Shown here in pieces: positions 1,357 to 6,805 of a stretch of 7,406 nt of DNA (position 1 is its first letter; each line of letters begins with the position of its first letter). The DNA is taken from positions 1 to 7,406 of the forward strand of contig JABIQT010000254.1 in assembly GCA_018667995.1 (NCBI GenBank). Reading direction: 5' to 3'. The notes below the pieces were generated by a model. It was not told where the DNA came from and did no database searches. It saw only the letters and a program-made list of their open reading frames with translations. Source of the stretch: Candidatus Latescibacterota bacterium. GTDB lineage: Bacteria > JAAXHH01 > JABIQT01. The translations under genes and the position numbers were made by a program.

Positions 1357-2677
1357 CCAGAATGCAGCCCGACTTTTCGCAATCGTGCCCCTCCGCTTCC
1401 TGTTCGCCCCGGGCTATCAACGACTCAATGCGGTCTTGGCCGAAGTTGAGCAGGCCGAGCACGCCACTCAAATCCTCTGTCGGATGATAGCGGTGAACTT
1501 GCAGTTTTCTGTATGGACGATTAGAGGCTGCCTGACGTCGAATTACGTGGCCGGCAGATTTTATGAATGAACGTGTTTGGGTATCGTCCGACGTGGATGC
1601 TCCTGCAATACCTACATCAAGTGCCGCTAGTCCATCGTTGATTCTGCCAATTTGCTCTATATCGCGGTTGATGTTCATGGCAAATTGGATAGTAAGCATC
1701 CGATCGAACGTATCCAGCGTGTTGCGGAAGCGTGCCAGCGGGATCTCTCCCACGTCTGGGTCCATGTAAATCATGTGTATGATATCGGCTTCTGCCTCTA
1801 TGGCTGGCATGGTGGGCGTGTTCATGACCAGTCCACCATCGCAATAGGTACGCCCGCCAATCGATACGGGCGGGAAGAATCCAGGTAGCGCCGTAGAGGC
1901 CAGAATTACAGCATGACCCATATCATCATTGAGTTGATTTTGATCGAATACGGCAGCTTCGCCGGATTCCCAGTCCGTGGTCACAATCTTGACACGCATA
2001 CGCGACTGCCGCAGGCGTTCGAGGGGAATCGCCTCTCGAATGACCCGCTGGAGAGGCTCTGTGGATACGAATGAACTCAGATCGACCATCTCCATAGCTC
2101 GATGCTCCAGAGGTTCCCCGGATTGAAGCATCCCAATACCCCGCTTGATCCAGTCTCGGGTCAGAAACATACTGTCCTCACCGAATTGCGTAAGAAGCTC
2201 CAGCGGATGGCGCGCCATATGCTCTGGGTGTTTCCATGCGAGGGCCGGCGGTCTGAACCGATACACTCCGTTTCCGCCCTGGCCCGAATGGTCCGCAATC
2301 CGATCCACCCACAGACGTTCCAGGTTTTCAACCGCCCGAACAGGTTTCTCGTACAGTGCCATGCAGGCGGCGTTGAATGCGCCGACAGATGTGCCGGTTG
2401 CAATATCAATGGGCAATGGGGTATGATTGGTGGCGGGCGATCTTCCGTTAATCAGGGCTTTCAATACACCCACCTCGAATGCGCCGAGAGCGCCGCCGCC
2501 GGACAGTATAATAGCATTCTTTGGGTGTTTCTTTCCTGGTCCATCCTCAGAGGGACGGGTAGGCTCGACGCGGCCTTCCTCATCGGTACGGGAATCGGAT
2601 ATCCAGTCGAGCGAGTCCGCTACCGCGCCAGGGGGGCTCTGTCCTAGAGGATCTTTCCCCAGACGTGATTTCTTCAC
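1349..2677 (-). CDS. Patatin-like phospholipase with basic N-terminal extension
   Basis: Predicted serine lipid acyl hydrolase using a Ser-Asp dyad. From the GTG at 2677 it has 442 residues. Residues 1-52 are a polar, Pro/Gly/Lys/Asp-rich extension starting MKKSRLGKDPLG. The patatin domain follows, with the oxyanion loop GGGALG (60-65), nucleophile elbow GTSVG (Ser97) and a DGG motif supplying the dyad Asp280. All key residues are present. The C-terminal ~140 residues look helical and are not assigned; the very end carries two Cys (CEKSGC). No signal peptide or membrane helix is seen. A GTG at 2707 is also possible (452 residues), but the 2677 GTG overlaps the ParA stop as GTGA and has GAGAGGG 7 bases upstream, which indicates coupling. 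It is the second gene of the parA operon. No nucleotide cyclase of the CBASS type is in the window, so a defence role is not supported. The natural lipid substrate is unknown. Confidence 0.92.
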   Translation of the reverse strand: MKKSRLGKDPLGQSPPGAVADSLDWISDSRTDEEGRVEPTRPSEDGPGKKHPKNAIILSGGGALGAFEVGVLKALINGRSPATNHTPLPIDIATGTSVGAFNAACMALYEKPVRAVENLERLWVDRIADHSGQGGNGVYRFRPPALAWKHPEHMARHPLELLTQFGEDSMFLTRDWIKRGIGMLQSGEPLEHRAMEMVDLSSFVSTEPLQRVIREAIPLERLRQSRMRVKIVTTDWESGEAAVFDQNQLNDDMGHAVILASTALPGFFPPVSIGGRTYCDGGLVMNTPTMPAIEAEADIIHMIYMDPDVGEIPLARFRNTLDTFDRMLTIQFAMNINRDIEQIGRINDGLAALDVGIAGASTSDDTQTRSFIKSAGHVIRRQAASNRPYRKLQVHRYHPTEDLSGVLGLLNFGQDRIESLIARGEQEAEGHDCEKSGCILAD

Positions 2678-3435: not shown

Positions 3436-3442
3436 GGCGAAA

Positions 3443-3450
3443 TCTCCTAC
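3443..3450 (-). promoter_or_regulatory. Ribosome binding site for parA
   Basis: GTAGGAGA, a strong Shine-Dalgarno match, ends 7 bases before the GTG at 3435 and fixes that start, from which the canonical MKTIALINQKGGVGKTT opening follows. Further upstream a weak promoter-like pair on the minus strand, TTGCTT, 17 bases, TTTATT, lies between about 3479 and 3507. It is too poor a match to call with confidence. Confidence 0.6.
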
Positions 3451-3532
3451 GGTTTCGGTTCGGTATCTGTCTCACAGCAATAAAGCCGCGGCACCTTTGA
3501 CAAGCAAGGTAATCCGGTAGGATCTTCAAACG

Positions 3533-3841
3533 TTATCTCGGCCATCTCTCGACCAATACGGGTAAAGTTGGATAAGGACAGTGGGGTTCATTCTGATACC
3601 AATAGGCTACTGAGGCAATGTCATCGGACAGAGGCTGATTACGTCCGTTGGGCCACCATCTCCGTGCCCGGATGGTCACACGAAGGTCTTGCTGGAAACA
3701 CACCGGATCCATGATGTGCCAGCGGTACAGGCTCCATTTCGCAGGTCCATTGTCACCTGGATGGTCCAGCACATTGCCGACGTAGAGCGTACTATAGGTC
3801 TCCGGGAATCCGTAGCTGCCGCAGAAGTGATCTTCCGTCAC
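3533..3841 (-). pseudogene. C-terminal fragment of a DUF2961/GH172-family protein
   Basis: About 102 codons match what I know of the C-terminal part of DUF2961 proteins, a beta-jelly-roll family now placed in glycoside hydrolase family 172 (the studied member acts on difructose dianhydride/fructofuranosyl linkages). Landmarks are TEDHFCGSYGF (2-12; family norm GTGTEDYF), SLYRWHIMDPV (37-47), QDLRVTIRA (51-59) and DDIASVAYWYQNEPH (73-87), ending in ERWPR and a TAA. Whole family members run to several hundred residues. Here the glycine-rich lead-in to the TED motif is missing, and the frame is closed by a TAA at 3881-3883, with only a poor GTG start at 3841. The N-terminal core (the segment usually rich in GWWGEGE-like text) was not found in any upstream frame. 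It lies on the same strand as its neighbours, between dapH and parA. It is most likely a relic of a catabolic gene and not functional. The family call is from memory of the motifs. Confidence 0.75.
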
Positions 3842-4224
3842 GTGGAGCGCGTATCGATTCTTAAATCGAACCAGTGGATTTTACAGTGACTGGGACCAAT
3901 TCTAAGATAAATGAAAGCGGGTTGGCAATCAATAGGCAGGAGTTCAAAGAATTCGACCTGTGGGAAATGGAAGGTATCGTGCTGATCTGATCTTGTAGCG
4001 GAGTTCTACTTATCTGAACCGCCGACACCGATAGAGTCTGTGCTGTCCGCTTCAATGTCGTAATCAGCGAATTATCTGGAACTATGCCGCGTAGATAGAA
4101 TGATTAGAGGATCAATTAATGGCGGGGCTCAGCTATGGAGATTGCCCATGGCTGACGCTGGACCCAAGTTGAATGTCACTCTGGCCAGATAGCCGATCGG
4201 TCCTGTATTGATATTGTCAATCTA
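3842..4224. other. Gap between the GH172 remnant and dapH; possible coding debris
   Basis: No intact gene. On the minus strand one frame is open at 4071-4009, stops at a TAG (4006-4008), and is open again to a TGA at 3838-3840. The second piece includes VEFFELLPID and KIHWFDLRID, a beta-rich pattern of the sort that closes carbohydrate-binding jelly-roll modules. No start codon with a ribosome binding site precedes it, so it would be a relic if real. Just after the dapH stop an ATTGA-CAATA-TCAAT hairpin of 5 AT-rich pairs is too weak to be a terminator. No tRNA was seen. Confidence 0.3.
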
Positions 4225-4962
4225 TCATTTATCTTGAGTCGGTAGCGCCCTGAGGGCATCGACAATCTGCGTCTTGGATTTCGTGTTTTCATCCATATGT
4301 TTCATCATTCGGGCTGGTATTCCCGCTACTACGGTATCCGGCGCGACGTCGTCAATCACTACAGCTCCGGCTGCTACGACGGAACCGCGTCCGACTTCAA
4401 TTCCCTCCACGATTACGGCATTGGCACCCACCAGCACGTTGTCCCCTACGGTGACAGGTTTTGCGCTGGGCGGTTCAATGACGCCTGCCAGCACGGCACC
4501 GGCTCCGATATGGCAATCGACACCGACGATGGCTCTGCCTCCGACGACCGCGTTCATATCAATCATGGTGCGTTCACCAATTACAGCGCCGATGTTGATT
4601 ACCGCTCCCATCATGATAATGCATCCCGCGCCGATTTCTACGTGGCTACGAATCAAGGCTCCTGGTTCTATTCGGGCCTCGATTTCTCGATAGTCCAAGA
4701 GTGGCACAGCTGAATTCCGCCGATCATATTCCACGTGAATATCGTCGACTGTGGCCTTGTTAGATTCAAGAAGCGCTTGCACCTGGTAAAGATCACCGAT
4801 TACGACGGGATCCTTGTCTGCATGGAAGATCTTTACCTCCCGCGCGCTCACCGGAGTAGTCTGGATTGATCCTTTAACGTATACTTTGACGGGAGTGGTT
4901 TTGGAGCTCTCCTGAATAAAACTGATAAGGCCTTCTGCGGACATCAGATCAGGCGTGGCCAT
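4225..4962 (-). CDS. dapH: Tetrahydrodipicolinate N-acetyltransferase DapH
   Basis: Transfers an acetyl group from acetyl-CoA to tetrahydrodipicolinate, giving N-acetyl-2-amino-6-oxopimelate, the committed step of the acetylase branch to diaminopimelate and lysine. It acts in the cytoplasm, and family members are trimers. The 245 residues fit DapH (about 235-245), not the succinylase DapD. Residues 1-85 form the DapH N-terminal domain. Residues ~95-215 are a left-handed beta-helix of hexapeptide repeats, including IGAGCI, IGAVIG, VGGRAI and IGAGAV. The family-typical [18 protein letters not shown] spans 153-170, followed by [12 protein letters not shown] (176-187) and VVAGIPARM (211-219), with a KSKTQI tail. 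The ATG at 4962 has GGAG 7 bases upstream. It lies 142 bp after dapB on the same strand and may be co-transcribed or have its own promoter. The hexapeptide repeats create long shadow frames on the plus strand, which are not genes. Confidence 0.95.
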
Positions 4963-5105: not shown

Positions 5106-5921
5106 TCAATCGGTGGATACATTCATGGTGCTTCTGATCACATCCATCATCGTATAGAGCCCTGCTGGCCGATCCTGGAGGAATCGGATAGCGTGAAGAG
5201 TGCCGTGTGCAAATGTATCAACGCTCTGGACTCGGTGAGTGAGCTCGATGCGCTCACCTATACTTCCAAAGAGGACGGTATGCTCTCCCGAAATGTCTCC
5301 GGCACGGATAGAGTGAATACCGATCTCTCGGTTCGTCCGCGGGCCGCTCGAAGGAGCTCTGCCGTAGACGGCTTTATAGACTTGGCGCCGTCCACGAAGA
5401 ATGCTCTCCGTCAGGTCTTTCGCAGTTCCGCTTGGTGCATCACGTTTGAACCGGTGATGTGACTCAATGATCTCAATATCTGCATCCGCATCGACCAACC
5501 GAGCGGCATATTCTGTTAGCAGGAAGAGTAGGTTTGCACCAAGCGACATGTTAGATCCAACAAGGCAGGGAATATGTTCCGAATACTTTCGTATCACCTC
5601 CACCTGGGAATCGGTGAACCCCGTAGTACCTATAAGGAGTGGCAAACCCATGTCACTTACCTGTTCCGCATGGGCGATTGAAGCTTTGGGCGTCGAGAAT
5701 TCCACCCAGGTCCGCCCGGGTTGCAGTACGGATCCCACATTTCCTTCAATCACGATGCCCTGAGTTCCAGTGCCTAATTGTTCTCCAAGATCATGCCCTG
5801 TATAGGGTCGATTTGGCGGTCCCAGAGCCCCCGCTACACGAATATCATCCGAGGTTGCGACCGCGCGACCTATTGCCACTCCCATACGTCCTGCGACACC
5901 ACTCAACGTGATCGCTATCAT
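5106..5921 (-). CDS. dapB: 4-hydroxy-tetrahydrodipicolinate reductase DapB
   Basis: NAD(P)H-dependent reduction of the DapA product to tetrahydrodipicolinate, in the cytoplasm. The 271 residues are a full-length DapB. Residues 4-14 contain the dinucleotide-binding loop (GVAGRMG, 8-14). GTTG is at 98-101 and SNMSLG at 123-128. The DapB signature IESHHRFKRDAPSGTA is at 152-167, with His155/His156 and Lys159 as the substrate-binding/catalytic residues. GEHTVLFGSIGERIELTHR (212-230) and the GLYTMMDV end (254-261) are also family-typical. The ATG at 5921 overlaps the dapA stop as ATGA, so translation is probably coupled. No terminator-like hairpin follows its TGA, which is compatible with read-through into dapH. 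Nothing is missing or unusual in the active-site motifs. Confidence 0.96.
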   Translation of the reverse strand: MIAITLSGVAGRMGVAIGRAVATSDDIRVAGALGPPNRPYTGHDLGEQLGTGTQGIVIEGNVGSVLQPGRTWVEFSTPKASIAHAEQVSDMGLPLLIGTTGFTDSQVEVIRKYSEHIPCLVGSNMSLGANLLFLLTEYAARLVDADADIEIIESHHRFKRDAPSGTAKDLTESILRGRRQVYKAVYGRAPSSGPRTNREIGIHSIRAGDISGEHTVLFGSIGERIELTHRVQSVDTFAHGTLHAIRFLQDRPAGLYTMMDVIRSTMNVSTD

Positions 5922-6805
5922 GCTGATGCCATATTTAGAAGTCCATACGTCCTCAGGAAATCAGTGAGTTGCACCCGCTGTTCCTCTAACATAGATACCA
6001 GGGGCAGGCGCATCTCATCTGTGGCCAGTCCGAGGATCGCGGCTGCTGTTTTTACCGGAATTGGGTTCGTTTCAATGAACATGGCTTTGCTTAACGGAAG
6101 AAGACGGAGAAATGCTCGCAGTGCGTCAGCGTGGCGTCCGGCGTTGTAGTGCGCGAGCAAGTCCGATACATCCTGGGGAACAATGTTTGCGACAACGGAA
6201 ATGACGCCCTTGCCACCCACCGAGAGAATGGGAAGTGTCAGGGTGTCATCTCCCGATAGGATCGTTATCTGCTCGCCACAATACGCGCTGATCAGCCCAA
6301 TCTGCTCAAGATCGCCACTTGCTTCTTTCACAGCAACGATTGTCTCGATTTGAGAGAGCTCTGCCATGGTCTCAGGCAGCACATTACCTCCTGTGCGGCT
6401 GGGGACATTGTACACTACCAGAGGCAAGTCCACTTTGCGAGCTATTTGAGTATAATGGGCAACAAGTCCACGTTGTGTCGGCTTGTTGTAATACGGCGTT
6501 ACAATCAGTGCTCCATCTGCGCCTGCAGATTGAGCATACCGTGTCATTTCAATCGTCTTCACCGTATCATTGGTGCCTGTGCCAGCAATCACCGGTATCT
6601 TGCCTTTAGCTTCATCAATCGTCACTGAGATGACATGTTCCCATTCCTGCCGGGTAAGTGTAACTGCCTCGCCAGTTGTGCCACACGGAACAATACCATC
6701 TGTGCCATTGGCGAGGTGAAAACGAATTAGATTCCTTAGCGCCAGTTCGTCCACCTGGCCATTTTGAAAAGGTGTAATAAGCGCAACTATGGATCCGGTA
6801 AACAT
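5918..6805 (-). CDS. dapA: 4-hydroxy-tetrahydrodipicolinate synthase DapA
   Basis: Class I (Schiff-base) aldolase condensing pyruvate with L-aspartate 4-semialdehyde, the first committed step to diaminopimelate and lysine, in the cytoplasm. The 295 residues match the usual length of about 292. The TIM-barrel motifs are all present: GTTGE (42-46) with the catalytic-triad Thr43, YYNKP (105-109), VVYNVPSRTG (130-139) with Tyr132 and Arg137, and VAVKEASGDL (157-166) with the Schiff-base Lys160. Also present are SGDD (184-187) and the ETNPIPVK segment (245-252). The ATG at 6805 has GAGGGA 5 bases upstream. It is the first gene of the dapA-dapB overlap pair. No lysine-riboswitch core (AGAGGTGC) was seen upstream on the coding strand, so feedback is likely at the enzyme or by other means. 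A related pyruvate aldolase (for example NanA-type) is unlikely, given the direct linkage to dapB and dapH. Confidence 0.96.
   Translation of the reverse strand: MFTGSIVALITPFQNGQVDELALRNLIRFHLANGTDGIVPCGTTGEAVTLTRQEWEHVISVTIDEAKGKIPVIAGTGTNDTVKTIEMTRYAQSAGADGALIVTPYYNKPTQRGLVAHYTQIARKVDLPLVVYNVPSRTGGNVLPETMAELSQIETIVAVKEASGDLEQIGLISAYCGEQITILSGDDTLTLPILSVGGKGVISVVANIVPQDVSDLLAHYNAGRHADALRAFLRLLPLSKAMFIETNPIPVKTAAAILGLATDEMRLPLVSMLEEQRVQLTDFLRTYGLLNMASA

Follow-up and report, generated by a model that had tools for sequence, protein, structure and literature searches.

A patatin-like phospholipase gene coupled to a plasmid-type parA encodes an N-terminal tail resembling those of RHH-type ParA partners

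The window analysed here, the whole 7,406-nucleotide contig JABIQT010000254.1 of a Candidatus Latescibacterota bacterium, carries on its minus strand a parA gene (3435-2674) followed by a patatin gene (2677-1349, 442 codons), whose predicted product opens with a short peptide of the kind found on the DNA-binding partners of small ParA proteins. We propose, with a probability of roughly two in three, that an enzyme has taken the place of the DNA-binding part in a ParA partner whose ParA-contact tail was kept, which would make lipid hydrolysis a ParA cargo. This reading is based on the overlap of the two genes, a tail homologous to those of RHH partners, the ancestry of the ParA, the intact motifs of both ParA and patatin, and the failure to detect an RHH domain in the latter.

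Results

The two genes overlap by the tetranucleotide GTGA (2674-2677), in which the start codon of the patatin gene meets the stop codon of parA. Upstream on the same strand lie dapH (4225-4962), dapB (5106-5921) and dapA (5918-6805), assigned with NCBIfam. The dapA gene is 72% identical to that of another genome of the same order (G011), and the order dapA-dapB-dapH recurs in a second one (G001), there without parA and patatin. The contig is therefore native to the phylum, contamination as its origin is ruled out, and the parA-patatin pair is best seen as an addition to a conserved neighbourhood. The 789 bp separating dapH from parA (3436-4224) hold no supported gene and only short two-copy repeats, with no centromere-type repeat array. 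On the plus strand, a 345-residue open frame (222-1259) converges with the patatin gene and is unmatched in Pfam, NCBIfam and PADLOC. The host genome also has an ordinary parA-parB pair on a separate contig (C697); at the window, the place that a ParB gene takes behind parA in canonical chromosomal ParABS systems is occupied by the patatin gene instead.

The ParA is a 253-residue ATPase of the small, deviant-Walker-A type (type Ib). It matches Pfam AAA_31 (E 6e-60), aligns with RHH-partner ParAs, and has an intact deviant Walker A motif (KGGVGKT, residues 10-16, 3408-3388), A' motif (DLDPQ, residues 37-41, 3327-3313) and Walker B motif (ILIDCPPS, residues 120-127, 3078-3055), with no N-terminal HTH domain. 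Its closest relative by sequence among the 84,980 species genomes scanned is encoded at a Caenarcaniphilales locus (L062; 65% identity, with the runner-up at 52%), and further parA/partner pairs were gathered with the L062 ParA and a ParA alignment as queries. In a tree of 114 rows, built by a quick method without bootstraps, the window ParA pairs with that of L062 at a support of 93, which lies below the starred level, and both fall inside a set of 55 rows (support 95) made up mostly of plasmid and phage ParAs with RHH partners. The ParA genes of the window's own phylum group with ParB-coupled ones, away from the window ParA. Related ParA and RHH pairs also occur in Lawsonia, Tenacibaculum and Flavobacterium on named plasmids, where the tails are of the type NFTGGLNSLLG and similar. 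The simplest history is that a plasmid- or phage-type cassette of parA and partner was captured and its RHH part replaced by a patatin.

The patatin protein begins, from the GTG codon at 2677-2675, V(M)KKSRLGKDPLGQSPPGAVADSLDWISDSRTDEEGRVEPTRPSEDGPGKKHPKNAIILSGGGALG. Its first 30 residues (MKKSRLGKDPLGQSPPGAVADSLDWISDSR, 2588-2677), which open MKKSRLGKDPLG and end in DWISDSR (residues 24-30, 2608-2588), form the ParA-partner-like tail, with RLGKDPL at residues 5-11 (2665-2645). A coupled GTG start opening into a basic peptide, as the preliminary description had it, is borne out by the GTGA overlap, by a Shine-Dalgarno-like GAGAGGG 7 nt before the GTG (2685-2691), and by four K/R against one D/E among residues 1-12. 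A polar linker (residues 31-58, 2504-2587) joins the tail to the GGGALG loop of the catalytic domain and is without counterpart in other patatins. It had been called disordered-looking, which is fair as a description of composition, the hydrophobic fraction being 0.19 for residues 1-58 and 0.33 for the patatin domain, but gains no structural support from a single-sequence model of the protein, which is uninformative (pLDDT 32 throughout). In total, 58 residues precede the GGG motif, compared with mostly 6-24 in patatins of other genomes whose start can be placed; among the exceptions, one has 81 residues with a hydrophobic, signal-peptide-like beginning and another is a spurious frame.

The tail was compared with the N-termini of proteins encoded next to related parA genes. 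The gene right behind the L062 parA, which was reached via its ParA and not via tail similarity, encodes 109 residues, made up of MSKERLGSDPFSWIKDSREDEKVE (opening MSKERLGSDPFSWIKDSREDE), a linker and an RHH-like domain. Other ParA partners begin MSDKRLGRDPLDWIGK (L223), MKKKKLGRDPLTEKPLSFIKDTRD (L138 and L222), MSNKDNRKMGTDPLAWINQ (L145 and L246), MSRIKNDPLDWINK (L221), MKKTGLGRDPLKWIQ (L301) and MKKTGLGKDPLSWIQ (L300), and shorter tails of the type MSKALGNNPLF also occur. In an unselected test, in which residues 1-45 of the patatin were locally aligned with the N-termini of 203 genes behind parA and of 8,417 other genes from the same loci, the top four of the 8,620 all belonged to ParA partners (scores 72, 63.5, 57.5 and 51.5; best background 51.0). 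Shuffled tails gave a mean best score of 41 against the partners, and none of 1,000 reached 72. The best match, the L062 partner, is encoded beside the very ParA that is closest to that of the window. When the window was left out of a profile of partner tails, that profile found the patatin as its best non-training sequence among 11,216, with an E-value of 5.2e-7 that is optimistic because its ten tails were chosen by motif, so that the unselected pairwise alignment is the fairer statistic; all profile matches under E 0.1 were N-termini of ParA partners. The likeness of the patatin tail to ParA-partner tails is thus far above chance. By sequence, the motif is the [K/R]-x-LG-x-DP-[L/F]-(n)-[W/F]-I of RHH-type plasmid and phage partners, although the patatin carries 12 additional residues separating DPL from DWI, where partners have 0-5. 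Counts of this motif were made post hoc. The suggestion of a ParA-interaction tail with a ParB-like LG motif consequently holds as to the tail, whose identity as a ParA-partner peptide is supported by the partner tails, both searches and the L062 match, but not as to the motif, which differs from the canonical LGxGL of ParB.

These results also bear on the idea that the resemblance arose by chance or that the true start lies downstream, the ParA and the patatin being mere neighbours. The motif is short and GTG is a less usual start codon; the unselected test and the profile, however, argue against chance, and no in-frame ATG is present in the patatin frame ahead of the catalytic loop. An alternative in-frame GTG does exist upstream, at 2707, but the start at 2677 is favoured because at L138, L300 and L301 the partner gene overlaps parA by the same 4 nt (offset -4) and the tail begins at the equivalent residue, which speaks equally against a start further downstream. 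We consider mere neighbourhood very improbable.

In the L062 partner, an AlphaFold model based on 22 aligned partners is unsure for the tail and confident for the C-terminal domain, with most values above 90 in residues 70-106. A Foldseek search of the PDB with this model placed CopG at the top, followed by ParG (the partner of ParF), also returned Arc, and gave RHH proteins in nearly all top rows, at individual E-values of 0.3-0.6, none below 0.29, and probabilities of 0.92-0.99; VIA-align to RHH proteins gave Z values as high as 7.0 for residues 63-109. Related partners match PHROGs as Arc-like, weakly (E 7e-5 to 7e-3), and Pfam has no model for them. RHH is thus a consistent, though not high-scoring, assignment for L062-type partners. 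The patatin gene resembles these partner genes in lying immediately downstream of parA and being coupled to it, and its product appears, from the sequence match to partner tails, to share their basic N-terminal tail. No RHH domain was detected in its 442 residues with Pfam, PHROGs or curated models, patatin being the sole domain found; it therefore falls outside the RHH partner family, although it would work like a member.

Other arrangements around parA were observed alongside these loci. At L302 (799-978 and 1489-2739; G070), a ParA is fused to a CheY-like receiver domain, with a ParB-like gene and a 59-residue peptide, MQRKKRLGNESLNWIKDTKE, immediately upstream; the peptide resembles the patatin and partner tail family (E 0.007). 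In two genomes of different families (L382:5199-6319, G565; L383:6929-8067, G428), parA is followed by a protein with an MKKTGLGxDPLxWIQ tail beside a gene that, read by eye, is shikimate-dehydrogenase-like; this is apparently a conserved chromosomal ParA-partner pair. At L305 (G640), parA is overlapped by the gene of a 503-residue protein that was judged PilM-like by eye and has a basic stretch at its N-terminus (MRVGKKSGLSKDVSSILNE); this ParA may serve a pilus system. At L306 (G523), parA precedes the gene of a 207-residue protein with apparently TPR-like repeats, the N-terminus of which (NVLGKGIEAIFKK) resembles the tails of canonical ParB proteins. In Planctomycetota, a cysteine-desulfurase-looking gene without a partner tail recurs directly behind ParA (L067, L072-L075, L078, L085-L087).

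The catalytic part of the window protein (residues 57-293, 1799-2509) is a patatin-like phospholipase domain of PF01734, which it matches at 119.3 bits (E 3.2e-34; curated cut-off 27.7) with the GGG, GxSxG and DG[GA] motifs intact: the SGGGALG oxyanion loop (residues 59-65, 2503-2483), GTSVG from residue 95 on with the nucleophile S97 (2395-2381), and DGG with D280 (1840-1832). In the C-terminal part (residues 294-442 and stop, 1349-1798), no second domain was detected. Among the closest curated models are CBASS effector phospholipases, namely the cGAMP-activated lipase NF041079 (55.2 bits) and PADLOC PDLC00758 (E 3e-15). This would suit a nucleoid-gated switch for abortive infection, in which ParA-ATP on an intact nucleoid binds the tail and holds the lipase off the membrane, and loss of the nucleoid or of ATP, for example under phage attack, releases it to damage the membrane; physical contact via the tail would fit such a switch just as well. 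The score, however, is far under the CBASS lipase cut-off of 200 bits, which places the protein outside that family, the matches are limited to the shared catalytic segment, and the window has no sensor or other defence gene, its neighbour being a housekeeping dap cluster. We regard such a switch as unlikely.

No close relatives of the patatin were found by a DNA-pattern scan of genome contigs and viral contigs, in the phylum's other 15 genomes, or in phages. Plasmid matches covered part of the protein and stayed below 30% identity, and the best patatins among 384 genomes are about 30% identical and lack the tail wherever the N-terminus is readable, so that a tail-bearing patatin is found in one case, in a single genome. 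At another locus (L220; G087, contig C31), a ParB-type parA is preceded at a distance of about 1 kb, on the same strand, by a patatin gene whose product has an ordinary N-terminus and no tail. The patatin and parA genes of the Rickettsia plasmid pRF were considered as a parallel and rejected, pRF03, pRF11 and pRF23 being listed in the published description as separate, non-adjacent entries (PMC1800911). The occurrence in a single genome with no orthologue, and the mobility of this type of cassette, would also suit a fusion scar, that is, a deletion through which a patatin gene became fused to the 5' end of a gene for a ParA partner, leaving a tail without a role. Several features argue against such a scar: the 442-residue frame is open and its catalytic motifs are intact, the tail keeps the family residues even though the ParA is only 65% identical to its nearest relative, and the overlapping start and Shine-Dalgarno-like site are retained. 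A scar of this kind seems to us quite unlikely. A stand-alone RHH partner was not found at E 0.1 in the host genome with a model that detects such proteins in three control genomes; a separate partner could be missing from the assembly, which is 85% complete.

Discussion

Short basic N-termini activate the ATPase of ParA/MinD proteins in several systems, and such tails have been argued to be modular, 'grafted' onto diverse interaction domains (PMC7993993, PMC10241942). For an RHH-type ParB, a peptide of residues 1-27 stimulates the ATPase of its ParA at a low level, and clustering on parS is needed for full activity (PMC9499535). Considering these studies, we propose the following hypothetical scenario, in which (i) a plasmid- or phage-type cassette of parA and RHH partner came to sit beside the chromosomal dap genes; (ii) the partner gene of the cassette now encodes a patatin that would retain the N-terminal ParA-contact peptide; (iii) the nucleoid would be covered by ParA-ATP dimers, as the analogy to systems already studied suggests; (iv) the basic LGxDP(L)...WI tail would dock on the ParA dimer and promote ATP hydrolysis; (v) docking would tether, space or cluster the lipase, with any bound lipid surface, along the nucleoid. 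Because RHH-ParB peptides achieve little stimulation of ParA unless clustered on parS (PMC9499535), a soluble lipase would depend on oligomerisation or surface binding, and clustering of the patatin could come from either oligomerisation or a lipid surface.

Since it begins with the short peptide of DNA-binding ParA partners, the patatin is the protein that this ParA probably holds or moves; its binding to ParA, stimulation of the ATPase and positioning are what we infer by analogy. It also appears reasonably probable that a plasmid-derived ParA positions a membrane or lipid-body lipase, or senses the nucleoid for it, the lipase being both its own partner and its cargo. Counting against replacement of the DNA-binding part by an enzyme are the single case, with no orthologue to show selection on the tail, the 12-residue insertion, and the 85% completeness of the assembly. 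If it is correct, the window would hold a natural instance of a basic tail grafted onto a catalytic domain, with the RHH plasmid-partition protein that donated it still recognisable, suggesting a route by which plasmid machinery is recruited into cell organisation. Searching for the LGxDP[LF]...WI tail would offer a way to spot the partners of orphan ParAs, and spatial control of bacterial lipid hydrolysis would become directly testable. In the open-access literature searched, we found no enzyme, patatin or other, in the role of a ParA partner.

Compared with known systems, the window protein shares its catalytic domain and motifs with patatin-like phospholipases such as PlpD and CapV/CBASS lipase (PF01734), from which it differs in the length of the region before GGG, the partner tail and the sub-cut-off CBASS score. 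With RHH-type partners, including ParG of TP228, omega of pSM19035 and those at L062, L223, L138/L222 and L145/L246, it has in common the position directly behind a small parA and a basic tail at the N-terminus with a linker behind it, the tail motif being shared with L062, L223, L138, L300 and L301. Its C-terminal part, in contrast, is a lipase and not an RHH DNA-binding domain, so that no DNA cargo is expected. In pairing a ParA-family ATPase with a short charged partner N-terminus, the locus resembles McdA/McdB of carboxysomes, PpfA/TlpT, ParC of chemotaxis arrays and PomZ/PomX (PMC7993993, PMC10241942). Whereas the partners in those protein-cargo systems are scaffolds or adaptors, the putative partner here is a lipid-acting enzyme, and its ParA is of the plasmid and phage type that works with RHH partners.
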